The position numbers and the translations under genes are program-made. Positions 5,201-61,306 of a stretch of 64,000 bases of DNA are shown here, piece after piece. This DNA comes from Amyelois transitella (taxonomy: Eukaryota; Arthropoda; Insecta; Lepidoptera; Pyralidae), in contig NC_083513.1 in the NCBI RefSeq assembly GCF_032362555.1, forward strand, positions 11,098,001 to 11,162,000. Reading direction: 5' to 3'. Every line of letters starts with the position of its first letter. Positions within the stretch are counted from its first letter, which is position 1. The notes beneath the pieces are model-generated. The model had not been told where the DNA came from. It was given only the letters and a program-made list of their open reading frames with translations, and searched no databases.

Positions 5201-8200
5201 ACAAGTTTCGAACTTACTTCGAGGCTAACTCAATCAGTGTAATTTGTCCCGTATATATTTATTTAATATTTAATAAACATCCAAGACGCAGGCCAATCAG
5301 AGAAAGTGCGTTTATCATCATGCCCTGGCCGGGATTCGAACCCGGGACCTCCGGTGTCACGGACAAGCGCACTATCGCTGCGCCAGAGGCCGCCAGGCAG
5401 GTGTGCGGGCGGAGTGCGGGCGGTGTACGGGCAGTGTGCGGGTGGAGTGCGGGCGGAGTGCGGGTGGAGTGCGGGCGGTGTACGGGCAGTGTGCGGGTGG
5501 AGTGCGGGCGGAGTGCGGGCGGAGTGCGGGCGGAGTGCGGGCGGAGTGCGGGCGGAGTGCGGGCGGAGTGCGGGCGGAGTGCGGGCGGAGTGCGGGCGGA
5601 GTGCGGGCGGAGTGCGGGCGGAGTGCGGGCGGAGTGCGGGCGGAGTGCGGGCGGAGTGCGGGCGGGGCGGGGCGGTGGGCACTGACCGGGCGGGTAGCGG
5701 GCGCGGCGCGCGCGCGCGGCGGGCGGCGGGTAGAGCGCGCCGGCGCCCAGCACCACGCGCAGCTGCTGGTCGATCTCCTGCTTCTCCGCGCGCAGCTGCT
5801 CCACCTCCTGCGGCACGGTCAGCGGGGTTACTACATCTACTACATCCAGGTTTTCCCACACCCCAACAGCATATGTTCGTATTTAATACATACATTCATA
5901 CATACATACATATCGTCACGTCTATATCCCATGCGGGGTAGACAGAGCCAACAGTCTTGAAGACTAAACGGCCACGTTCAGCTATTTAGCTTAATGATAG
6001 AATTGTGATTCAAATAGTGACAGATTGCTAGCCCATCGCCTAAAAGAAGAATTGTATTTAATGTACACACAAGTTGAGACATTAATCACATTTTACGACA
6101 ACCTAAGACTTGTCTACATAAATGTGCTTGCAATTTGACCATTAAAAATAGCAAACATATTTCTGGTCATGCCACTTCCACCTATCCTTAATAAAGCATC
6201 TAAACATTCCCTTTTTTATTTATATCTTTTTTTCACAACACACATCCCCTTATCATGCTCTTTTTAACCCAATCACTCTGTTTTGTGTTCAGTTTTAAAT
6301 TTAGATAATAATAATTACCTTTAGATGCGCCACGTGGTACTCGACCAAAACTTTAGCGTTGGCAATGTTCTCTCTCGTGCCGACGAACACAAACGGGACC
6401 ATTCCTTCCTCGCGAGGCGTCGATGGCTGTGGCTCGTTGTCACCTTCCACTTTAACCTGGAATAATAAATTAAAATTTCATAAAATATACTCGAAAAGGC
6501 TAGTACAAAGAGGTATGTAAGAACTGGTCACAGACAACCTCGATTTTTAACATTGTACATTTTACCAATCCAATGTTAAGTAATACAGAAAATTTACAGT
6601 GTTAGTAATTATGTTTGTAAAATAAAGATGAAAAAGATATCCAATATAAGATTACCATGCACAGCCTGCTGAAACTCTAGTGTCTGTAAATCTCCCTTGC
6701 GGGGTAGACAGAGTAGTCTTGAAAAGAAATAAGGCTATGTTTAGCTGTTTGGCCTAATATGGTTTCAAATAGTGACAGGTTGCTAACCCATCACCTACAA
6801 TATTATTAGTACCAAACATATTATTAATTAAAGTACAGTATCTGCCTACCCCTATAGGAAAAAGGCGTGATAAATATGTATGTATTAACATGAATATATA
6901 AAAACTAGCGACCCGCCCCGGCTTCGCACGGGTGCAAAATTCGGAAAAAATTATACATAAAAACCACTTGATACACTCTACCTGTTACAAAAAACCGCAT
7001 CAAAATCCGTTGCTTAATTTTAAAGATTTGAGCATGCAGACAAACAGACTAAAATGTTTTATACTATGTAGTGATAAGAAGACAAACAATACAGACGCGC
7101 ACGACGCCGCTCTTGTCCACGATCTCCTGTATGACCTTCCCGCTCTTGCCGATGACCTTGCCCACGAGCGCGCGCGGCACCTTGATGGACTCCTCCGCGT
7201 ACTCCAGCAGCGAGCGCGCCTGCCGCACCGCCTCCAGCGACTGCCGACAGGTTATACTGTTTATATATACTGTCGTGACGTCAATGACGTGGACTCAAAT
7301 CAGGGGAGGGACCAGGCGGAGAGAGAAGTCGGAAGGAACACTTTTGTGGAGGGGGCAACCGGGAACATGCAGAGATGAGGTTATATACAAATTATATTTA
7401 AAAGGATATTACAATTAGTGCCGTGTGGTTCCCGGCACCAATACAAAAAAGAATAGGACCACTCCATCTCGTTCCCATGGATGTCGTAAAAGGCGACTAA
7501 GGAATAGGCTTATAAACTTGGGATTCTCCTTTTAGGCGATGGGCTAGCAACCCGCCACTATATGAATCTCAATTTTATCACTAAGCCAAACAGCTGAACG
7601 TGGCCTATCAGTCTTTTCAAGACTGTTGGCTCTGTCTACCCCGTAAGGGATAAAGACGTGATGTATATGTATGTATTACAATTGGGAGGCAACAGAAGTG
7701 AATGATGATAGGATTCATACAAAGAAAAGTTGAATAAATGGTCAATTTAACATACATGTGGAGGCTGAGAGAAGGCAGATTAAGTATGAACCACATCCTA
7801 CCTATAAATGCGAACGTTTGTAAAGATGTGTGGATCTGTTTGTTACTTCCACGCAAAATGTACCGACAGGTTTTCAAAGAACTGTAGTAATACAGTTTAG
7901 TTAGAGATTTTTAAGCGAAATAAGTTAATTGGTTGTTTGTTTCCTTTTTCATGGGTTATTTATTAAATTAATCTTCAAAATTTTTACGAATATATAATGA
8001 ACAGTCCGGAGAAGGACATAGGATACCTTTTATTCCACTAAAAACCTGTTTTCTTTTGAGGTGGCGCAAAATAACCCAGCCCTTCAAACAATCAAATCTA
8101 ATGAAGGCAAGTTAAACTAAATATTCACAAAGCTGATATTATTATCACCTATCAAACCTTATCTCACTTTTGCGTCAAGCCCTCGCCTGAAAACGTCCCT

Positions 8201-11200: not shown

Positions 11201-14200
11201 CAGTGACTAGTTATTCTTTCCACTTTTTCCGCGAAAGGGTGTGAACACCCTGACACTATCGTCACCCGTCTCTCTCCGGAGAGAGAAGGTGGCACCCACC
11301 TGAAGTGCATCTCCTGCAGCATCTGCGCGCGCTTCTGCGAGGTCTCGCAGCGCGAGATGACGGCCAGCGCGGCGCGCTCGGGCACGTACCACACCAGCGC
11401 GGCGCCGATCGCCTTCTGGAACTCCTTGTGCGCGTTCTCCACCTTCGCGCTTTGCATGTCGTGCAGGCTGGAAACGAGAACGTTTTTGAATAAAGAATGA
11501 GTTTTTACATATCGCACAGGCTAGAAACGATAACGTTTTTGAATAAAGAATGAGTTTTAGCATATTCATGCAGGCTGGAAACGATAACGTTTTTGAATAA
11601 AGAATGAGTTTTAGCATATCGCGCAGGCTGGAAAGAAAGCGTTTTTGAATAAAGAAAGAGTTTGTCGAATTGTTCCTCGGTAAAGCGTGGCACAGACAGG
11701 GAGCGATGAAGGGGCGGGTGGATAGCACGTCGATTATATTTCTGCATGGTTTAATACACGACTTACAAGAAGCGGGCACGGGTCGCTAATCGCAAATATT
11801 ACCCGCCGTATTCCCGAACCGAGCCGCAGTGGCTCTTTGTCTATGTTACGCATAATGTTCAAATAAGCGACGGACATCCATCACAAACTGGTTCTCTAAT
11901 GATGACTTGAAAAACTACATACATCACGCTTAAGTGCATTTTTGTTCGAGTCCTGTTGTTTCGTTTCCGACAAATGAAAAGACAGATTTTTACTTTTTTG
12001 AAAATTCCCATTTGTTTCCATTTATTTTATTTCAAGAAATAATATTTTTAGCAACAGCCATCCAGCTATTAATCGCCCAGTAACGGATTTAATGTTATAA
12101 TGAATGCAGATACTAAAAATAGGTACTATAGGATCCCAAATTCACGTAATTCACATTCGTGTAATTTTTCCTTGAAAATCTTTATCTCTCGTCATCACTA
12201 CCACTAGACGAATCTCTCATTAAGTGCTTCCATATCTGATAAACACTATCTCTCAAGAGAACTCAGTATCACATCACAATTGCAATGAAGCTGTTGGTTA
12301 TCCTGTTTTTAATCACCGAAACAATATGTTACTACCACAGCGACGTAGGAATTCCTGAAGCGACCAGAATAAAGTCAGCAGAACTAATTAACCAAAGAGT
12401 AACAGGCGGCGAATTAGCAGACTTGGGAGTTTATCCCTTTTTCGCGGGCCTAGTGATAGCTGTGAACGTAAACTTGACGTCAGTATGCGGCGCTTCTATA
12501 ATTTCTAATACAAAATTGATTACGGCGGCGCATTGCTGGACCGACGGTGAGTATCAAGCTTTACTCGTCGAAGTGGTCCTCGCTTCAAATACCTTATTCA
12601 CGGGCGGGACGAGAGTAGCAACCGATGACGTCATCGCCCACGAAGATTTCAACCCGGAATCTTTGCAGAATGACATTGCGATCATAACTGTGCCGAGAAT
12701 CGAATTCAGTGGTAATTTGATGGCGATAAGTTTACCGATGGTGGATTCTTATGTCGGTACTCAGTGTCAAGTGGTCGGTTTTGGCCGGACGGCCGAAGAG
12801 GAACCGTTGACTTTGACACAGCAGTTAAGCCACGCGTATTTGACGGTAATAAGCAACGAGGAGTGTGGTATCTTTTATGGGGAGCTGATTACGGATTCGT
12901 TGGTGTGTACGAGTGGTTTGGACGGGAGGGGGCCGTGTGGTGGGGACTCTGGGGGACCAGTGTTTTATGGAGATGAAGAGTTTACTTTGATAGGTGTGGT
13001 GTCATTTGGAGCGGCGTACGGCTGCGAGGCCGGATTCCCTTCAAGCCATACCAGAGTGACGGCTTTCCTTCAATGGATCAATGAAAGAATGTAACATCGT
13101 GATAATGTTATTAAACACGAATCATTCCAATTAAATAAGTTTTGAGATTTTTCTAATTTCACTTTGACTCATCCAAATTTGACTGTAATAACCCTTAATA
13201 AACCTTACAAATAAGCTGGCTTTTCTAACAGTAGAACAGAATTGTTCCTTGTTCTATTCCGTCACATAATATTTCATAAGAAAAAGCTGATGCAAAGAAC
13301 TTATCAAAACCTTTTAACGTAAATTTAATGACCATTTCTATGTGATGTCATTGAGATGAAAGTTGTTGAATTTTTCTTATCAGGTTGAATGTTAAAATGT
13401 GTCAGTTTGTTTAATAGCATCACTTCTATAAACAGAAAAAAAGGTCATATCGTGTGATATGTGAAAATAAGATTATTGGATGGACCAAAGAGGACAGAGG
13501 ATGAAACAGTGAATACTGAATTTACATTCTTGCAAGGAATCATAGAAGTTGGTCAGTAGGTACTATCATTCTGCCACATAAACTATTAGCCAAATTTTGG
13601 TAAAATGGTAAAATAATATTACGTTTATTATAAATGCGAAAGTAAGTTTGTTTGTCGTCTCTTCACAAGTTTTCTACTGAACAAATTTTCTTGAAAACTT
13701 GTGTAACATACATACACGCCTCTTTCTCGGAGGGGTAGGCAGAGACAAATTTGTGTATACATATCTTAATTACCTAAGATCATAGGGAATACCCTGAAAA
13801 ATATTCATCCCTAGCAAAAACTAGTGCCCATGGGATTTGCGAAAATCCTCTATACTTTACAGGTAGGTGTCGCTAAATTCGCGTGGACAAAGCTGTGTTC
13901 AAAAGTTAGTTTGGCATAAAGAATAACAGTAGTAGATCTAGTAATTTCTACAATATCCAAAGAGACAAAAGCCCAAAACAGTTAATATATAACAAATTTA
14001 GAGTCATACCCTGTGGCCCAAAACAACAGTGGAGAGTGTAATCAAAACAAGCAAAGCGAGAGAGAGAGATATATATATATATACTCACTAATCTTTGAGG
14101 TCATCAGGCACGGTGATCTCAAACTTGTGGAAGGTGGACTTGTCTATGGGCGTCTTAGTGGTCTTCACTCGGAGGCGATCCTTTGGCACAATTTCTGTGT

Positions 14201-49070: not shown

Positions 49071-52000
49071 ATGTCGCGTCTAGACCTGGTAATCTTTGGA
49101 GCCACAGGTTTTACTGGCAAGAAAGCGGTGGAGCACCTAGCCAAGGGGGGGAAGCAGTATGAGGGGGTCACATGGGGGGTGGCGGGCCGCTCGCAGAGCA
49201 AGCTGGAATCCATCATGGCGGAGATCTCTAAAATAGCAGGTATAATTATTATTACATGAAATCATTGGTTCCGTGTGGTTATCGGCACCAATAAAAAAAA
49301 AAGTATGTCAGTATGTATGTAAAAACAATTTACACAGGTTTCTATGCGAAAGTTTAAAGTATAATCGTATTAACCAGAGTTCCGGAACCCAGGAGCTATA
49401 AACAAGTCTATTTAGAGACTAACGTGGCAGATTCCATCGCTTTCTGTTTATCGTTTTTTGATTGCTACTAATCAGCGCTGCGTAACCTTGATTCGATGCA
49501 TTCCGCATTTGTCCGACCGACTACAGTAAATATACGTACATATAATGAAGTTTATATCCCTTGCGGGGTAAACAGAGCCAACAGTGTTGCAAAGACTGAA
49601 AGGCCACGTTCGGCAGTTTGGCTTAATGATAGAATTGAGATTCAAATAGTGACAGGTTGCTAGCCTATAAGCATATCCCTTATTCGCCTTTTACGACATC
49701 CATGGGAATGAGACGGAGTGGTCCTATTCTTTTTTATGTTGGTGCCGGAACCACCCGGCTTGATTTTCTGTATGCTAAAAGTCACAATTTCCCCATTAAG
49801 ACATACAGCTGAACGTGGCCTTTCAGTCTTTTTTAGACTGCTGTCTCTGTCTACCCAGTAAGACGTGCTTATATGTATGTATGTACTACATACATATAAT
49901 CACGTCTTACTACTACTACTTACTTCGAGGCTAACTCAATCTGTGTAATTTGCCCCGCATATATTTATTTATTTTATTTTATATTTTATATAATCACGTC
50001 TTACTGGGTAGACAGAGAGTACATACTATGTATATTCTAATTAACAGACAAAGACCTCAGCGCTGTGAAGATCATAGTCGCCGATATATCCGACGAGAAG
50101 TCTCTAAAAGACATGTGCAGCCAGGGGAAGGTGCTAGTGAATTGTTGCGGGCCCTACCGACTGTACGGCGAGCCCGTGGTCCGGGCGGCTATAGAGGCTA
50201 AGACGCACTATGTTGACGTCAGCGGGGAGCCACAGGTAATCTATGAGTTTCTGTAGATGTGGTTACCTGTAGCATATAGCAGGTGTCCATCGACGCAATT
50301 CCTTCTTAAGGACATGTGCAGCCAGGGGAATGTGCTAGTGAATTGTTGCGGGCCCTACCGACTGTACGGCGAGCCCGTGGTCCGGGCGGCTGTAAAGGCT
50401 AAGACGCACTATGTTGACGTCAGCGGGGAGCCACAGGTAATCTATGAGTTTCTGTAGATGTGGTTACCTGTATCATATAGCAGGTATCCATCGACGCAAT
50501 TCCTTCTAAAGGACATGTGCAGCCAGGGGAAGGTGCTAGTGAATTGTTGCGGGCCCTACCGACTGTACGGCGAGCCCGTGGTCCGGGCGGCTATAGAGGC
50601 TAAGACACACTATGTTGACGTCAGTGGGGAGCCACAGGTAATCTATGAGTTTCTTAACCCTGTGGTTACTTGTAGCAAATAGCAGGTATCCATCGACGCA
50701 ATTCCTTCTTAAGGACATGTGCAGCCAGGGGAAGGTGCTAGTGAATTGTTGCGGGCCCTACAGACTGTACGGCGAGCCCGCGGTCCGGGCGGCTATAGAG
50801 GCTAAGACGCACTATGTTGACGTCAGTGGCGAGCCACAGGTAATCTATGAGTTTCTGTAGATGTGGTTACTTGTATCATATAGCAGGTATCCATCGACGC
50901 AATTCCTTCTAAAGGACATGTGCAGCCAGGGGAATGTGCTAGTGAATTGTTGCGGGCCCTACAGACTGTACGGCGAGCCCGTGGTCCGGGCGGCTATAGA
51001 GGCTAAGACGCACTATGTTGACGTCAGCGGGGAGCCACAGGTAATCTATGAGTTTCTGTAGATGTGGTTACTTGTAGCAAATAGCAGGTATCCATCGACG
51101 CAATTCCTTCTCAAGGACATGTGCAGCCAGGCGAAGGTGCTAGTGAATTGTTGCGGGCCCTACAGACTGTACGGCGAGCCCGTGGTCCGGGCGGCTGTAG
51201 AGGCTAAGACACACTATGTTGACGTCAGTGGGGAGCCTCAGGTAATCTATGTGTTTCTGTAGATGTGGTTACCTGTAGCATATAGCAGGTGTCCATCGAC
51301 GCAATTCCTTGTTAAGGACATGTGCAGCCAGGGGAAGGTGCTAGTGAATTGTTGCGGGCCCTACAGACTGTACGGCGAGCCCGTGGTCCGGGCGGCTATA
51401 GAGGCTAAGACGCACTATGTTGACGTCAGCGGGGAGCCACAGGTAATCTATGAGTTTCTGTAGATGTGGTTACTTGTATCATATAGCAGGTATCCATCGA
51501 CGCAATTCCTTGTTAAGGACATGTGCAGCCAGGGGAAGGTGCTAGTGAATTGTTGCGGGCCCTACAGACTGTACGGCGAGAAGAGTTTCTGTTTGCGCTA
51601 ATCTAAGGAACTACTGGTTGGAATTGATAAATTATTTTTGTGTTGAATAGACAATTTATCGAGGAAGGCTTGAGGCTATATAACATCACGCTGCAACTAT
51701 ATTGAAGAAATAATGGAAAATGTGAAAAAAAAACTGAGAAAATTATTCATCCTTGAGGGCTTCAATGATGCCCGAAATAACTATTCCACGCGGACGAAGT
51801 CGTGGGCACAGCTATTCGTTAGATAAAAGATGCCTATATTGTTCTAATGCTATAAACAAGTTTTTATCCTCGTAAATTTTGTTTTTATCATTAGTTTTCA
51901 TACCGTACCGGTATCATCTGACGCGAGCTCGTAAAAACATCGGGGCGCATACGCATCATACAAGTTAAACATAAACATTGCGTCATCAGAAACAGGTTAA

Positions 52001-55000
52001 CGCGTCTAGTTTTGGCCGGGTACCGACAATGACATAGCAAAAAAAGTAGGTATACAAGAGATTCGAACCTGTGTCTTTCTGCGCATCACGCATTTCAACC
52101 AGGCACCTTGCCGATTTGACCGCTGACGCTCTTGTCCCTTCCCCGTGACCCTTGAACAGTCACGTCCCCAAAAAAAGGATATGCCAAAATATTTGAACAT
52201 TGGATAATGGTAAATGCTGCACTTGATACATACATACATAAAATCACGCCTCTTTCCCGGAGGGGTAGGCAGGGACTACCTCTTTCCACTTGCCATCCGA
52301 TCCGATCTCTGCATACTTCCTTCGCTTCATCTACATAACTCTCTTCGTGCAAGCTTGGCGTTTTCGGGTACTTTTGACCTGACCCTGCACTTGATGAATA
52401 TGCTTATTCCCTTATTCGCCACTTACGATGCACAATAAGAAAGATAGATAAAACTCTTTATTGCACCATAAATGTAAAACATACACAACAGCACAAAACA
52501 GATAGTGATGGTACAAAGGCGGACTTATCGCTCATGCAAATCTCTTCCAGTCAACCTTTGGGTGCGCAAGGGCAACAAATAAATTCATTCATTCATATAA
52601 TCACGTCTATATTCCTTGCGGGGTAAGCATATCCAGATCCAGTCCTGTAATACTGACAGGCCACGTTCACCTGTTAGGCTGAATGACATAATTGATATTC
52701 AAATATACATACATACATACATATGGTCACGTCTATATCCCTTGCGGGGTAGACAGAGCCAACAGTCTTGAAAAGACTGAATGGCCACGTTCAGCTATTT
52801 GGCTTAATGATAGCCATCGCCACCATCGCCTAAAAAGAAGAAGTTTGTAAGCCTTTCCCTTAGTCGCCTTTTACGACATCCATGGGAAAGAGATGGAGTG
52901 GTCCTATTCTTTTTTGTATTTGTGCTGGAAACCACACAGCACATTCAAATATATACGTTTGATTTTAGGTACTTATACAAAATATGCATGTGCAGTATTG
53001 TTTTTTGTATACGGATGTTATCATAATCTTTTTATCGGCCGTTCAGTGTGATATGATTCATCAGTAGGTAGGTATATTAATACCACAAATGTTACATACC
53101 AGTACCACGTATGGTCGGCCTTGACGTCGTGGGCCGCCGGTTAGGTCATAATCTGATGAAAATTATTCTCCGATGATGCAAAGTGAATTAATTATGGAAA
53201 TTGTGGAAACAATTCAAAATGGAAGCCATTGTTATAAGTATTGTTTTTATGTCTCAGTTTCCATGCATAGGTACATACATACATATGGCCACGTCTATAT
53301 CCCTTGCGGGGTAGACAGAGCCAACAGTCATGAAAAGACTGAATGGCCACGTTCAGCTATTTGGCTTAATGATAGAATTGAGATTCAAATAGTGACAGGT
53401 TACTAGCCCATCGCCTGAAAAAGAATCCCAAGTTTGTAAGCCTATCCCTATAGCCTATGCATAGGTTAGTGCATATAAAGTATCGTATGTGAAATGTTGT
53501 TTTTGGTTTATGGTTTAAGCTCATATTTTGGTAGTATCGTTGGGATGATCTGATGACAGTAACCTGTGAGGCTGTAAGCAGAATATAACATTGAGAACAT
53601 TTAAATTATCGTTGGAAGTTGGAATTGAACCAGTCCATATCTTTCCAATACGTGTCACTTATTGATGTTATCATAACTTAAGTCTAAGCGCACATGTAGA
53701 AGAAGCGGCGGAAGGAACTACACTGCAGCATTTTCACCGGACGTCAATTTGACCCGATGACATTAACCTATCAGACTGTTAGCAGAATATAACATTTAAA
53801 ACATTTAAATTATCGTTGGAAGTTGGAATTGAACCACTCCATATCTTTCCAATAGGTGTCGTAAAAGGCGACAAAGGGATTGATAGGCGACTATTTGATT
53901 CTCAAAAAATACTTATTACAGAAGAATTGTGTAAATAAATTCTCAATTATTATAGGATACAGTTTTAATTCCAATGCAGTACAGGTCCAACTACTTACAT
54001 TCATTCGTGTGATAGCTCGCGTGACTTGTTTCCTTTTACGGATAACTAGTCGCAATTTATGCAACACTGTTTTTTAACAGCATATTATTTGTTAATTATT
54101 TAGCAGAAAAACTCTAGAATCATGTGGATTCCGGTTTCATGCGATTTATTTCGCAATCTCTCCTTCATTGTGGCGTTGTTGCCCCAATTGCGCATGCGCC
54201 GCCAATATCACCTCGACCAACTCTTTTGGTCTTTGATGAAAAAATACGTAGGTACCTGATTTACCAGTTTGTGATATTATTGAGCATTTTATTTGAAGGC
54301 AAACTACATAGATTTTTTTGGGCTGCTGGCCTAAAGACCGCTCCTTCTATTTCCAATGAATGTCGTAAAAGGCGACTAAGGGAATGCTTTTAAACTTGGG
54401 ATTCTTCTTTTACGCGACGGGCTAGCAACCTGTCACTATTTGAATCACAATTCTATCAAATTTTAATTACTAGACAAAAACGGTGCCGTATCTCATTGGT
54501 GCCGTGTGTCTCCCGGCACAAAAAGAAAAAAGACGCCACTCTATCTCTTTCCCATGGATATCGTAGAAGGCGACTAAGGGAAAGGCTTATTATAAACTTG
54601 GGATTCTTCTTTTAGGCGACGGGCTAGCGACCTGTCACTATGAGAAAGAGATAGAGTGGTGCTATTCTTTTTCCTATTGGTGCCGGGAACCACACGGCTT
54701 ATTTTTTTTTTTTAACTGGTTTATTATAAGTAATTATGTATTGATTCTTACAGTTCATCGAGACGGTCCAGTTGAAGTACTCGGCCCAAGCTCGGGACGC
54801 TGGCGTGTATATAATTAACGCTTGCGGGTTCGACAGTATCCCCAACGATATGGGCGTCATCTTCCTGCAACAGGCTTTGGCTGGTGAGACAATGATATGA
54901 TACATACATACATACATAAAATCACGCCTCTTTCCTGGAGGGGTAGGCAGAGACTACCTCTTTCCACTTGCCACGATCTCTGCATATTTCCTTCGCTTCA

Positions 55001-58000
55001 TCCACATTCGTAACTCTCTTCATGCAAGCTCGGCGGTTTCGGGTACTTTTGACCTGACCCTTTACCAGGACGTCCTTAATTTGATCATGATGATACGATT
55101 GATATGATATGATTATACATACATACTGTTTCATATAGGAATTTATGATTTATATTAGGATATTTGTAAATTAAACACATTCGAGTATGTTTCTTGTTAG
55201 TTTATCTTTCTTGACAATGACATTGACACTCATATGACACACATACATACATACACTAGCTGTGCCCGCGACTTCGTCCTCGTGGAATAGTTATTTTGGG
55301 CGTCATTGAAGCCGTCAAGGATGAATAATTTTACTCGTTTTTTTTTTCACATTTTCCATTATTTCTTTGCTCCTTATAGTTGCAGCGTGATGTTATATTA
55401 TAGCCTAAAGCCTTACTCGATAAATGGTCTATTCAACGCAAAGAATTTTTATGCTGAAGAGTTTAACAAACAAACTCTTCAGCTTATAATATTAGTAGGT
55501 GTAGATATCGTCACGTTTACATCCCTTGCGGGGTAGCCAGAGCCAAAAGTCTTGGTAAGACGTTCAGCTGTGTGCCTTCGTAGAATGGTATTGAGATTCA
55601 AATAGTGATGGCCCATACCCTACAAGAGGAATCCCAAGTGTTTAAGCCTATTCCTTAGTCGCATTTTACGACATCCATGGGAGAGATATGAAGTGGTTCT
55701 ATTCTATAACACACGTCACTATTTGAATCGATTCCATCATAAAGCCATACAGCTAAACTAGGCCTTTCAGTCTTTTCAAAACTGTTAGCTCTGTCTACCC
55801 CGCAAGGGATATAGACGTGACTGTATGTATGCATTTTCTCCTATTACCTTTGTTGTAATAAAATATTGTATTTTCCCAGGCGGTACCCTAAACTCGGTGG
55901 AGTCTTACATGAGTACATACGTCCCGCCGGAGTACCAAGCCGAGGCTAGGAAGAGCGGCCTCATAAACTACGGCACTTGGGAGTCTCTTGTGCACAGGTA
56001 TTTGTTTATATTTATTCAGTGCAGAGAATATATCATAGTCCATTTTATTTAGGGACTGAAGTAAAACTTAACGGTACTCGGCATTTAGCACTATCCGCGC
56101 CTATCTCTTTCTTGCGGTCAACAAATATAAAAGAGTAAACGAAACAAATATAGTTTTGTCGCCGCGCTTCATGATGCTCGCCTAGGAACATAAAGTTGTG
56201 GAGCCGCTTTGTTTTATTTTTTATGATTTTTTATTTTGATACTAGTTCGGCTGATTAATTATTTAATTAGGTGAATGGAAATATGTAATGTTATCTGAAA
56301 ATGGTACCTGTTAAAACGATTAAGTAAAATTTGGTAAGGGGGTGATACTACATCAATTACACGACTATCTAGTTAATTCTAATCACATGCCAACGAAGTC
56401 GCAAGTAAATCCTTACAGAACAACATACATACATTTACGTGTATTTCAGTTTTCCGCAGAACGCCATAATAAGGAATTAATGGATTTCTATTATAGCGAG
56501 AGACCGAGGTGAAGAGTTTTTAATCGGGATCGAACCCGTGACCTCCGACTTGGCAGTCAGGCAAGATGATCATTAGGCCACAGAAGTCCACAAAAAACAA
56601 AAGAACTACCTTTAAAGTAAAAAACAAACTACTTACATCCAAATCGACACATAATCACAGACATTCAAACACTCATACACCCAAACAAACTCCTTCTAAC
56701 ATCCAATAGACAATTTTTATTGCAACGCATTTCGTATCAAAATGTTAAAGTGTGTGAAGGTAAACATTTTAAAATAACAAAGCCACTCCACTAGCCTCTT
56801 TGTTCTAAATGAAACATTGAGTTAATACCATGTCACGCCAAACTACGTTTTTTAAGGATTGCGTGCCTTATTCTAAAACATTTAAGGTTCAATTTTCAAT
56901 ACACTTGTTTTTGGACTTAGGACTTTGTCAAATAGTCGAAGTAATATGCGTAATAATAATTACGTATTGAGGTGAGGACGATATTTTGTTTTATTTTGCT
57001 CGGAACTGTTTATCTAGTTGTTTATAGTTGATCGAAGTTTTTTAGTATGTTTTCACGCCGTCACGGATGTCGTAAATTTGATGTGCTATAGTTCGTCTAA
57101 AAATATTACATTAGGTATAGGCTATGACCGCGTCCCAGCATAAGTCGTGTAAGTTTTTGTGAAAAAAATAAATATAATTAGAAAAAAATACGATTAGGTA
57201 TGACTTTGAACGCTAAAGTGTTACATACATGCAATCACGTCTATTTCCCTTGCGGGGTAGACAGAGATAATAGTCAGCTTCAGCTTAATGATAGAATTGA
57301 GACTCAAATAGTGACAGGTTGCCAGCTCATCGCCTACAAGAAGAATACCAAGTTGATAAGCCGTTCCCTAAGTCGTCTTTTACGACATCCACTGGAAAGA
57401 GATGGAGTACTTCTATTCTATTAAAAGTGCCGGGAACCACACGGCAAGTTAACTTTCCTTAGTATAGGTAAACTTCGTGATACGGGATATAAAATGGTCC
57501 TATTAATGTTTAGTGCATAAAATAATGAACTGAAGACTATGAATTGTCTATTGTTTTGTTTCAGTTTATCGCATTACAGCGAGTTGAGCTCTCTTCGTAA
57601 GCAGTTGTACCCCGAGAGGCTTCCTACCTTCAAACCGAAGCTGGAGAGACGGTGAGCCTTTACATACATAAAATCACGCCTCTTTCCCGGAGGGGTAGGC
57701 AGAGACTACCTCTTTCCAATTGCCACGATCTCTGCATACTTCCTTCGGACCATACTCATACTTATTATATGTGGTGAGGTGAAGAGCGTCGTTGGTCGAA
57801 AGGTTAAGTTGTCTAGCTAAAGTGTGTGGGGAGTCAGGTTCAAAACTTATTCTACTTCGGTCATGTATCAATGACTTATGTGCATTTTGAGTGGCAAACG
57901 ATGCTCTTACGCTGAGGCTGAGGCTAATATATATATATATATAATATTTCCTTTTTTGTTTTCATTGTAAGTATGTCCGTAATGCCTACCCGGGCACCCC

Positions 58001-61000
58001 CGGAAGTAGCATATTGTTGTTTACGGCCAGCATTATGATGAGGGGGTACCCTTTCGGGAGCACCATACTACATGTTTATTTTTATACATATTATTGTTTC
58101 TTTTTTTTTGTCTTTTTGTTATGGTGTTTTATGAATAAATTCTTTATACATACATACATATGGTCACGTCTATATCCCTTGCGGGGAAGACATAGCCAAC
58201 AGTCTTGAAAAGACTGAATGGCCACGTTCAGCTATTTGGCTTTAAGATAGAATTGAGAATCAAATAGTGACAGGTTGCTAGCCCATCGCTTTAAAAAGGA
58301 ATCCCAAGTTTGTAAGCATATCCCTTAGTCGCCTCTTTCGACATCAATAGTAAAGAGATGGAGTGGTCCTATTCTTTTTTGTATTGGTGCCGGGTACCAC
58401 ACGACAAATTCAATTAACACAGTAAATTATTTTTATTTATCCTGTTTGGAGGGAAACATTCCAGCAGCTCTTTGAACAGCCGCGTGACTCTATAAATTTG
58501 TCTTTGAGCAGTCGCGTGACACTATAAATTTGTCTTTGAGCAGTCGCGTGACACTATAAATTTGTCTTTGAGCAGTCGCGTGACACTATAAATTTGTCTT
58601 TGAGCAGTCGCGTGACACTATAAATGATCGCAGGCCGGTCCTCCACAAGCGTGACAACGCCTGGTGCGTGCCGTTCCTGGGCGCGGACGGCTCCATCGTG
58701 TACCGCACGCAGCGGACTCTGCACGAGGCGCACGGCGACAGGCCTGTGCAGTTCAAGGTGATAACACACATACATACATACATACATACGTACGTACATA
58801 CATACGTACGTACACACGTACATACATACGTACGTACACACGTACACACGTACACACGTACACACGTACACACGTACACACGTACACACGTACATACATA
58901 CATACGTACATACGCACATACATATGGTCACGTCTATATCCCTTTCGGGGTGGACAGAGCCAACAGTCTTGAAAAGAGTGAAAGGCCACGTTCAGCTATT
59001 TGGCTTAATGATAGAATTGAGATTCAAATAGTGACAGGTTGCTAGCCCATCGCTTAAAAAAGAATCCCAAGTTTGTAAGCCTATCCCTTAGTCGTCTATT
59101 ACGACATCCATGGAAAAGAGATGGAGTGGTCCTATTCTTTTTTGTTTTGGTGCCTGGAACCACACGGCACTACACACTTACAAATATAGATCTCTTAAAT
59201 CTAAATCGTGGACGAATGCGCATTGTCTACATCAAAAAAAAACATGAATGAACGTAGAAACTTAACATACAAACATTAATATATTTCTTTGAAATACCTG
59301 GTTGACTGGAAGAAATCCCTCACAGGGATAAGTCCGCCCTTGTACGTCGTTATTTTTTATGTTTTTTATGTATTACTTTTAATTTGTTATGTACAATAAA
59401 GAATTTACAAACAAACAAACAACATTCCTTTCAGGTATACGTGCAACTCTCGAACCTATTCTACACCACGCTTATGATCCTAGCCGGGATTGTGATATTC
59501 CTAATGTCTAAAACGAAATTCACTCGGCAACTGTTACTGGAACACCCTAGATTGTTCTCGGGGGGGTTTGTCACTCGTCAGGGACCGAAAGAGGAAGTCA
59601 TGAACAACTCGTACTTCCGGTTCGACATGATCGGCGCTGGGTGGGAGAAGGGGCGGGATGTGGAGAAGACGCCGCCTAATAAGGAGATCGTTGCTAGGGT
59701 GAGTTATACATACATACATATGTACATATATACATATATACATACATATATACTTATATATATACAAACATACAAACACACATTGATACATACATTCATT
59801 CATATGTATAATCACGTCTATTAATTAAGGACGTCCTGGTAAAGGGTCAGGTCAAAAGTACCCGAAACCGCCGAGCTTGCATGAAGAGAGTTATGAATGT
59901 GGATGAAGCGAAGGAAGTGTGCAGAGATCGTGGCAAGTGGAAAGAGGTAGTCTCTGCCTACCCCTCCGGGAAAGAGGCGTGATTTTTATGTTATGTTATG
60001 TAAATCACGTCCATATCCCTTGCGGGATAGACAGAGCCGTAGAAAGGCCGCATTCTGCTGTTTGGTTTTATCATAGAGTTGAGATTCAAAGAGGAATCCC
60101 AAGTTTATAAGCCTATCTCTTAGTCGCATTTTACAACATCCATGGACACGAAATGGAGTGGTCCAATTCTTTTTTCTATTAGTGTCCGAAACCACACGGC
60201 ACTATATTTGATAATAGATAAATCAGAAATTGTGAAAGACGACTATAGGAACACGCAGACGTAGCTACTGAGCTTGGAAACTGTAATTTAGTATTAAGTT
60301 CTTCTTCTTATAGACATTATTCTGAAATTTCCCCCCAAAATAAGGAGCTTATTCAATTTTATTTTGCAGGTGTCGGGTGTGAACCCTGGGTACGGCGCGA
60401 CAGTGGTGGCGTTACTTTACTCGGCCTTAACGGTGCTCCGCGAACAGGACAAGATGCCGCAGTAAGTCATAGTTTAAAGTGAAAAAGATATGTATTGTAT
60501 ATGTTAGGGTAAATGTGGATTTTTAAACAAAACAATTATATGTAGCCGTGTGGTTCCCGGCACCAATACAAAAAGGAATAAGACCACTCCATCACTTTCC
60601 CGTGAATGTCGTAAAAGGCGACTAAGGGACAGGCTTACAAACTTGGGATTCTTTTTTAGGCGATGGGCTAGCAACCTGTCACTGTTTGAATCTTAATTCT
60701 ATCATTGAGCCACATAGCTGAATGTGGCCTATCAGTCTTTTCAAGACTGTTGGCTCTGTCTACCCCGCAAGGGATATGGACGTGACCATATGTACCTATG
60801 TATGTATGTACAAATATATGTTATTTACCGTAATGTATTTGTTTTGTTTAAAAAACTCTCAAAAACTACTGAACCGATTATGATGATATTTTACATTTTC
60901 CAATACTAGACATTAAGGTTTCGTCCCCCTGACTTTTGTGCCGGTTGCATCCTCACCACTCTGGAGAGGAGCACAGGTATGCTTTTGACCATATATCCTG

Positions 61001-61306
61001 GATCGGGTGAGTCGGGGTTTTACACGAAGCGACTCATATCATAGACACGTTCGGGCTTCACACGGGTAGAATTTACAGATATAAACCTTCCTCAGAAAAG
61101 CCTCTTTTCAATATTACAAACGGGAGCAAAATCCGTTCGCAACTTTCCGAGATTAGCGCATACAAACAGACAGATAAAATAGGGGGACTGGGAATGTTTT
61201 CAGGCATGGTGTCTTGACCACAGGAGTGGCCTTCCGCAACACGAACCTGATTAAAAATCTCAACGAAACAAAGGAACTCAAGTTTGAAATACTCGAGGGC
61301 AAGTGA
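49071..61306 (+). CDS. SCCPDH: Saccharopine dehydrogenase-like oxidoreductase
   Basis: Nine exons: 49071-49239, 50048-50235, 54754-54883, 55880-55997, 57565-57651, 58634-58757, 59435-59698, 60370-60461, 61204-61306. Phases match and give 424 aa (human 429). Start MSRLDLVIFGATGFTGKKA holds the Rossmann GxxGxxG. VLVNCCGPYRLYGEPVVRA, HYVDVSGEPQF and CGFDSIPNDMG match the SCCPDH family. A hydrophobic segment YTTLMILAGIVIFLM (exon 7) is a likely membrane or lipid-droplet anchor. The family resembles lysine-pathway saccharopine reductases but its substrate is unsettled; it is found on membranes and lipid droplets. Exon 2 is followed by a tandem array of copies of its own 3' part (50311-51580). If only exon 2 itself is used the protein is normal. 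Confidence 0.95.
49545..49762 (-). repeat. SINE-like family A copy, inverted
   Basis: TATATCCCTTGCGGGGTAAA at left, TTGGTGCCGGAACCACCCGG at right, in SCCPDH intron 1. A second, 3' fragment in plus orientation is at 49795-49885. Confidence 0.7.
50110..51580 (+). repeat. SCCPDH: Tandem exon array: 201-bp unit, eight copies, in SCCPDH exon 2/intron 2
   Basis: Copies of GACATGTGCAGCC start at 50110 (inside exon 2), 50311, 50512, 50714, 50915, 51116, 51317 and 51518. Spacing is 201 except one 202. Each full unit is 126 nt of exon (42 codons, DMCSQGKVLVNC...VSGEPQ) plus 75 nt starting GTAATCTATG and ending TTCCTTCTTAAG. The exon part is phase 0-0, stop-free in all copies, with CAG|GTAATC donors. 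Copy 1 is the ancestral exon end; copy 8 is cut after CTGTACGGCGAG. Copies differ by a few bases: K7N, I28V and E29K in copy 2; V23A in copy 4; K7N in copy 5; G6A and I28V in copy 6; plus several silent changes. Confidence 0.95.
50311..50436 (+). CDS. Putative duplicated SCCPDH exon (2b)
   Basis: 42 codons, phase 0-0, between TTCCTTCTTAAG and CAG|GTAATC. Differs from exon 2 at K7N, I28V and E29K. Whether it is spliced in is unknown; five further full copies follow at 50512-50637, 50714-50839, 50915-51040, 51116-51241 and 51317-51442. Confidence 0.45.
51581..51815 (+). mobile_element. 5'-truncated Helitron-like element ending the exon array
   Basis: AAGAGTTTCTGTTTGCGCTA to GCGGACGAAGTCGTGGGCAC, then AGCTAT. 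It replaces the array sequence in the middle of copy 8, so that copy has no donor. Confidence 0.75.
52050..52130 (-). repeat. tRNA-derived SINE family C, inverted
   Basis: GATTCGAACCTGTGTCTTTC and CACCTTGCCGATTTGACCGC mirror the family C head at 22148. Confidence 0.55.
52226..52385 (-). mobile_element. LINE 3'-end fragment, inverted
   Basis: (CATA)n, ACGCCTCTTTCCCGGAGGGG, TTCGCTTCATCTACATAACT, GGGTACTTTTGACCTGACCC: reverse complement of the (ATGT)n LINE. Confidence 0.7.
52715..52945 (-). repeat. SINE-like family A copy, inverted, near full length
   Basis: (CATA)n then GGTCACGTCTATATCCCTTG to TGTGCTGGAAACCACACAGC. A truncated inverted copy precedes it (52600-52700), and another follows at 53270-53460. 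Confidence 0.75.
54359..54695 (+). repeat. Two partial SINE-like family A copies plus an inverted piece
   Basis: GTCGTAAAAGGCGACTAAGG (54362) and GGTGCCGTGTGTCTCCCGGC (54500) in plus orientation. AAGAGATAGAGTGGTGCTAT...GGTGCCGGGAACCACACGGC follows inverted at 54644-54700. This last piece ends about 55 bp before the SCCPDH exon 3 acceptor. Confidence 0.65.
54903..55085 (-). mobile_element. LINE 3'-end fragment, inverted
   Basis: (CATA)n, ACGCCTCTTTCCTGGAGGGG to TTTACCAGGACGTCCTTAAT; encodes QIKDVLVKGQVK...[12 protein letters not shown] on the minus strand. Starts about 20 bp after SCCPDH exon 3. Confidence 0.75.
55256..55506 (-). mobile_element. Helitron-like element, inverted
   Basis: CTAG at 55256-55259 followed by CTGTGCCCGCGACTTCGTCC; the other end CTTCAGCTTATAATATTAGT ... 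GATA. An inverted family A copy (55507-55700) follows directly, and a plus-strand family A 3' part lies at 55725-55830. Confidence 0.75.
56460..56600 (-). repeat. tRNA-like SINE head (family D)
   Basis: On the minus strand: GACTTCTGTGGCCTAATGAT (A box region) and GGAGGTCACGGGTTCGATCC (B box region). The anticodon arm does not give a convincing tRNA. Single copy in the window. The rest of 56000-57200 (SCCPDH intron 4) shows no gene. Confidence 0.5.
57225..57448 (-). repeat. SINE-like family A copy, inverted
   Basis: CAATCACGTCTATTTCCCTT to GTGCCGGGAACCACACGGCA; internal deletion near the middle. Confidence 0.75.
57660..57870. repeat. Inverted LINE 3' tail (57660-57752) followed by SINE family C (57784-57870)
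   Basis: ACGCCTCTTTCCCGGAGGGG...TCTGCATACTTCCTTCG, then AGCGTCGTTGGTCGAAAGGT and CAGGTTCAAAACTTATTCTA. The LINE piece begins within 10 bp of the SCCPDH exon 5 donor. Confidence 0.6.
58143..58410 (-). repeat. SINE-like family A copy, inverted, full length
   Basis: (CATA)n, GGTCACGTCTATATCCCTTG to TTGGTGCCGGGTACCACACG. Confidence 0.8.
58471..58628 (+). repeat. 32-bp tandem repeat, five copies, against the SCCPDH exon 6 acceptor
   Basis: The unit TTTGAGCAGTCGCGTGACAC + TATAAATTTGTC starts at 58471, 58503, 58535, 58567 and 58599. The last copy runs into GATCGCAG|GCCGG, the exon 6 acceptor at 58633. Each unit holds an AGCAG and a TATAAA word. Confidence 0.92.
58765..58925 (+). repeat. (CATA)n/(CGTA)n/(CACA)n compound microsatellite
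   Basis: About 160 bp of tetranucleotides starting 8 bp after the SCCPDH exon 6 donor. It is the expanded tail of the inverted family A copy that follows (58926-59170). Its lack of stops creates false frames on both strands. Confidence 0.9.
58926..59172 (-). repeat. SINE-like family A copy, inverted, full length
   Basis: GGTCACGTCTATATCCCTTT to TTGGTGCCTGGAACCACACG. Confidence 0.8.
59704..59815 (+). repeat. (CATA)n/(TATACA)n microsatellite beside SCCPDH exon 7 donor
   Basis: Begins within 10 bp of the donor AGG|GTGAGT at 59698. Confidence 0.85.
59822..60000 (+). mobile_element. LINE 3'-end fragment
   Basis: TTAAGGACGTCCTGGTAAAG ... CCCCTCCGGGAAAGAGGCGT, the best-preserved tail after 18525. 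It is followed directly by an inverted family A copy (60000-60200). Confidence 0.75.
60545..60815 (+). repeat. SINE-like family A copy, full length
   Basis: AGCCGTGTGGTTCCCGGCAC to GACGTGACCATATGTACCTA, then (ATGT)n. An inverted family E repeat piece follows at 60915-61045. Confidence 0.8.

Follow-up and report, generated by a model that had tools for sequence, protein, structure and literature searches.

Tandem genomic duplication is named as one accepted route of intron gain in a review (PMC3443670). The RdRp gene of potato gained a new intron when a segment spanning an intron/exon boundary was duplicated in tandem, and 106 RNA-seq reads confirmed that this intron is spliced (PMC4974935). 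Two further systems combine tandem repetition with exons. In the KIV-2 repeat of human LPA (PMC11462820, PMC11201333), tandem units hold exon sequence together with splice sites and are homogenised, and in insect Dscam (PMC1397879, PMC6071210) tandem exon copies lie within a single gene.

Here we describe an array that is unusual but of this known kind, in the SCCPDH gene of the navel orangeworm, Amyelois transitella, a pyralid moth. It lies in a 64,000-nt stretch of genomic DNA (the window), whose positions are used throughout. As in the potato case described, the duplication runs over an exon/intron boundary, one splice site comes from the parental intron while the other would be recruited at the joint, and the coding length would change, i.e. 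the gain would be 'imprecise' (PMC4974935). In the moth it is the donor side that is repeated and the acceptor that would be new, the mirror image of potato; the moth array has six full extra units where potato has one, and splicing is backed by RNA-seq reads in potato (PMC4974935) whereas in the moth it is a prediction from the DNA. Its units measure 0.2 kb, with an acceptor that would be a by-product of the joint, whereas those of KIV-2 are 5.6 kb long and protein-coding. The moth copies are nearly identical, in contrast to the diversified, mutually exclusive exons of the Dscam type. Narrow searches of open papers found no description of this array.

Splicing of the nine exons of SCCPDH (49071-61306) gives a protein of 424 amino acids, identical to the deposited sequence P0001, 'saccharopine dehydrogenase-like oxidoreductase isoform X1 [Amyelois transitella]', one of a cluster of four sequences. 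This identity confirms the gene assignment and the bounds and phases of exons 1 to 3, which had been predicted from the DNA. By its name, 'isoform X1' implies one or more further isoforms; in the deposited form exon 2 is joined directly to exon 3 and the cassettes, the exon-like parts of the array, are absent. Residues 7-140 match the NADP-binding family PF03435. One intact copy of SCCPDH is present in the window, and because the gene is intact the array, which takes up the beginning of intron 2 (50236-54753), lies in a live gene. The gene contains a second tandem array, of 32 bp x 4.9 (58469-58625), which stops 8 bases short of the exon at 58634; most of its units contain TTTGAGCAG, which places several AGs just upstream of the true acceptor at 58634.

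The analysis with TRF confirmed the array inside SCCPDH (50103-51580; period 201, 7.3 copies, 95% matches), and its score of 2674 was the highest among the 16 TRF rows of the window. The repeat unit consists of the last 126 nt of exon 2 and the first 75 nt of intron 2, arranged head to tail as originally predicted. Exact anchors delimit the native unit, six full copies and a partial copy of 63 nt (Table 1). The units are spaced by 201 bases with a single exception of 202, which is due to a spacer of 76 nt; the first junction coordinates proposed for the copies were correct, while the later ones are displaced by this spacer (50637/50714 and on). In all six full copies the exon-like part is open over 42 codons, with AAG directly before it (AAG/GAC) and GTAATC directly after it (CAG/GTAATC), so that a GTAATC donor and an AAG joint occur in each full unit. 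The pyrimidine tract expected before each copy is generally present, but it is interrupted by a G before copy 6 and before the partial copy. The alignment of the units has 22 variable columns out of 202, among them a complex change that is private to copy 2. Elsewhere in the window we observed a minisatellite at 5403-5665 (GC-rich 11-bp unit GTGCGGGCGGA, 23.9 copies, 92% matches) and a tandem array at 11454-11663 with 4.0 copies of a 53-bp unit.

Table 1. Positions in the window of the SCCPDH exons, the units of the array and the adjacent repeat
Feature	Position	Strand	Remarks
SCCPDH exon 1, coding part	49071-49239	+	ends in phase 1; spliced CDS = P0001
SCCPDH native exon 2	50048-50235	+	donor CAG/GTAATC; ends in phase 0; spliced CDS = P0001
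SCCPDH exon 3	54754-54883	+	phase 0 acceptor CAG/TTC; spliced CDS = P0001
Other SCCPDH exons	55880-55997, 57565-57651, 58634-58757, 59435-59698, 60370-60461, 61204-61306	+	
Unit 0	50110-50310	+	126 nt from the end of native exon 2 + 75 nt from the start of intron 2
Native exon 2 end, exonic part of unit 0	50110-50235	+	exact anchors
Copy 1, exon-like part	50311-50436	+	K84N, I105V, E106K
Copy 2, exon-like part	50512-50637	+	protein as native; spacer 50638-50713 (76 nt)
Copy 3, exon-like part	50714-50839	+	V100A
Copy 4, exon-like part	50915-51040	+	K84N
Copy 5, exon-like part	51116-51241	+	G83A, I105V
Copy 6, exon-like part	51317-51442	+	protein as native
Partial copy 7	51518-51580	+	first 63 nt alone, without donor
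Interspersed repeat, 14 nt after array	51595-51814	+	relatives at 650, 24796, 31742, 37453, 55452 (reverse)

Exon 2 ends and exon 3 starts in phase 0, and the copies are phase 0-0. Splice sites were scored with generic matrices, which rank even authentic acceptors weakly: the eight authentic acceptors scored -0.29 to 6.75, the true exon 3 acceptor ranking only 22 among the 263 AGs of intron 2. On the same scale the AAG acceptors of the copies scored -1.14 to 0.65 (rank 30-78 of 263), and the donors of the extra copies scored the same as the native donor. The original prediction that each joint makes a new acceptor thus holds for the presence of the AG, while these mediocre scores make its role as an acceptor only possible; by sequence the AAGs are candidate sites of poor to ordinary quality. 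It had also been proposed that any number of copies could be spliced in without a change of frame. This is true for the AAG (126 nt) and for a competing CCAG 15 nt past it (AG 50326; 111-nt piece), but not for the AG at 50322, which gives a 115-nt piece and breaks the frame. A further site also violates the rule. In copies 3-7 (50714-51580) a silent change of CGA to AGA, absent from the native exon and from copies 1-2, creates CCCTACAG/AC; by arithmetic its predicted use leaves 76 nt, out of frame, and three of these sites are within the 15 best AGs of intron 2 under the generic matrix.

Retention of a spacer leads to an in-frame stop in all seven cases. The predicted end after VIYEFL applies to five of them; of the others, one reads VIYVFL and one VIYEFLNPVVTCSK before the stop. 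Splicing of exon 1 straight into a copy does break the frame, as had been claimed, and reads GHVQPG... to a stop (seen in that frame for copies 2-6). We therefore rejected a mutually exclusive exon array: exon 1 ends in phase 1, the copies start in phase 0 and do not contain the 62 nt with which exon 2 begins, and the frame reaches a stop. The junction sequences expected from copy to copy (GGGGAGCCACAG/GACATGTGCAGCC) and from copy to exon 3 (GGGGAGCCACAG/TTCATCGAGACGG) do not occur on either strand of the genomic window, and the spacer-retaining sequence GAGCCACAGGTAATCTATGAG occurs there six times.

Three protein searches were run, in which the best 120 matches were listed out of 975 (first), 1911 (second) and 387 (third); the second and third queries, of 676 aa and 192 aa, contained cassettes. 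None of the 257 proteins among the matches listed, which are protein records and not RNA, carries tandem cassettes. In four of the 257 a second match lies 379-424 aa from the first, and each of these four is two whole genes fused. P0121, the best match listed for a cassette query, was rejected as a repeat protein for this reason, and P0122, P0125 and P0126 likewise each consist of two whole SCCPDH genes joined. The best match listed for the 676-aa query is a two-gene fusion from Parnassius apollo, and a full cassette form would have matched this query better than the fusion does. The relatives' proteins listed are without cassettes as well; a protein sequence does not display introns. In P0077 (Eumeta japonica, 608 aa) unrelated residues follow the same GEPQ exon end and the sequence resumes at FMET; the extra residues look like kept intron sequence, and a gene-model error is possible.

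The ten variable sites in the exon-like part comprise five synonymous and five nonsynonymous ones. This gives a dN/dS of about 0.30 (5/96.7 over 5/29.3; Fisher P 0.0496, binomial P 0.07-0.12), so that the coding changes appear, at a borderline level, mildly conservative. The corresponding pi-N/pi-S was 0.25 with the native unit included and 0.27 among the six copies alone. For four of the five amino-acid changes the new residue also occurs at the corresponding position of relatives (131 proteins; P 0.007-0.056 depending on the threshold), in a test that was devised after the changes were seen and that left out 6 of 137 proteins with lengths outside 360-480. The openness of the copies is weak evidence, because the probability that a random point change creates a stop is about 0.04 and only ten sites have changed. 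Exon and spacer variability did not differ significantly when counted by events (10/126 vs 8/75, P 0.61) or by columns (10 vs 12, P 0.10), and the mean pairwise distance was lower in the exon part (0.032) than in the spacer (0.062). Exchange with a constrained native exon would alone mimic a coding pattern; hence dN/dS cannot separate translation from conversion.

Thirty of the 45 pairs of ten informative two-state sites failed the four-gamete test, with the native unit included. Since all four combinations occur in so many pairs, the units appear to have exchanged sequence, through unequal crossing-over or conversion; some of the pairs may reflect recurrent mutation. At residue 83 the native protein has G and copy 5 has A; of 130 relatives, 72 have A and only one has G. 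It is possible that copy 5 kept the ancestral residue while G spread, in either direction, through the remaining units and the native exon, or that A83 is a chance change. The KIV-2-like features found here are a complete, phase-compatible exon in every full unit and signs of recombinational homogenisation; a translated product of the KIV-2 kind was not found among the 257 listed proteins, P0001 is without cassettes and the coding-like constraint is weak.

The joint of the array puts intron position 75 beside exon base 50110. The sequences at the joints, TTCT(A/T/C)AAG/GACATG, are similar to TCTAAAA/GACATG in the exon, which hints that the breakpoint had a short homology. The interspersed repeat next to the array, which may be a Lep1-type Helitron, was considered as part of a mobile element that built the array. 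This proposal is unsupported, as the relatives of the repeat lack exon 2 sequence in the stretches aligned. An interspersed repeat of ~180 bp (CACGTCTATATCCCTTGCGGGGTAGACAGAGCC...; e.g. 53272-53453) has many copies on both strands of the window, including other SCCPDH introns.

With moderate confidence we favor an in-place tandem duplication over the exon/intron boundary, with units that exchange sequence and with copies that are normally skipped. A 201-bp segment across the exon 2/intron 2 boundary would have been duplicated in tandem and expanded to about seven units, which would then have swapped sequence with one another and with the native exon. Every unit would inherit the parental donor and the new joint would supply a possible acceptor AG, such that with each duplication step the gene would gain one candidate intron of 75 nt and one candidate in-frame cassette of 126 nt. 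Under normal expression the whole of intron 2 would be spliced out in one piece, perhaps with rare noisy inclusion of copies. The duplication in place is consistent with copies that are tandem, in register and contiguous with the native exon, and the exchange of sequence with the four-gamete result; the potato mirror case also speaks for this account. Skipping agrees with the direct exon 2-exon 3 splice of the deposited protein, the mediocre AAG acceptors and the cassette-free proteins listed. Because the known protein has no cassettes, the copies are most likely a by-product of duplication. Against skipping stand the coding-like conservation of the copies and the intact state of all donors; moreover, gene models can miss repeats, and the protein evidence consists of the best 120 matches per search. 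Spacers of 75 nt also have a plausible intron size.

It is less likely, and in our judgment unlikely, that beta-alpha-beta cassettes of 42 residues are used in varying number behind exon 2, whether in a particular tissue or at an appreciable level, and that selection keeps them open. The phase, the open frames, the intact donors, the dN/dS and the tolerated residues would fit this. So would the structure: in the AlphaFold model of SCCPDH, which is confident (mean pLDDT 93.8; 39 aligned proteins), the cassette is a single strand-helix-strand segment, residues 78-119 (strand 83-88, helix 93-106, strand 110-113). This part lies in the fold common to saccharopine and carboxyspermidine dehydrogenases (top Foldseek match 8h50_A, TM 0.61 by query, 12% identity); a sequence search of solved structures gave no match. 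However, residues 78-119 show higher conservation across the family (mean 0.82) than the remaining residues (0.66) and belong to the best-conserved part of the nucleotide-binding domain, where an insertion would probably be disruptive. The lack of such a protein among the 257 listed matches, the rival out-of-frame AGs beside mediocre AAGs, and the lack of a significant difference in variability between exon and spacer by events also argue against use. A bolder form, which we regard as distinctly improbable, is a nascent coding VNTR: SCCPDH transcripts would carry zero to six cassettes (424 + 42n residues) under purifying selection, and exchange between array and exon would have moved the unusual G83 of the native protein, A83 being kept in copy 5.

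The copies could also form a splicing decoy that, through its internal AGs and its six additional identical donors, sends some pre-mRNA to early-stop transcripts and so lowers or tunes SCCPDH output. The stops in all seven spacers and the native-like donor scores would suit such a role, but use of the first donor would sidestep the problem, and we hold this function to be doubtful. An assembly artefact or a wrong copy number is very improbable: the array is known from a single assembly, but the 22 variable columns and the private change in copy 2 are not expected from a stuttered duplication of one sequence, and the record carrying P0001 is 12 Mb long.

Should the cassettes be spliced, the array would show introns and exons being multiplied by tandem duplication at a rare, early stage, one experiment being repeated six times in one gene. 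If the copies are skipped, as we favor, a working exon can have a good deal of intact splice-like and open coding sequence beside it that goes unused, which calls for caution in naming open, in-phase copies exons. Either way, conversion between the array and the conserved exon would be a testable route of change in the native protein.
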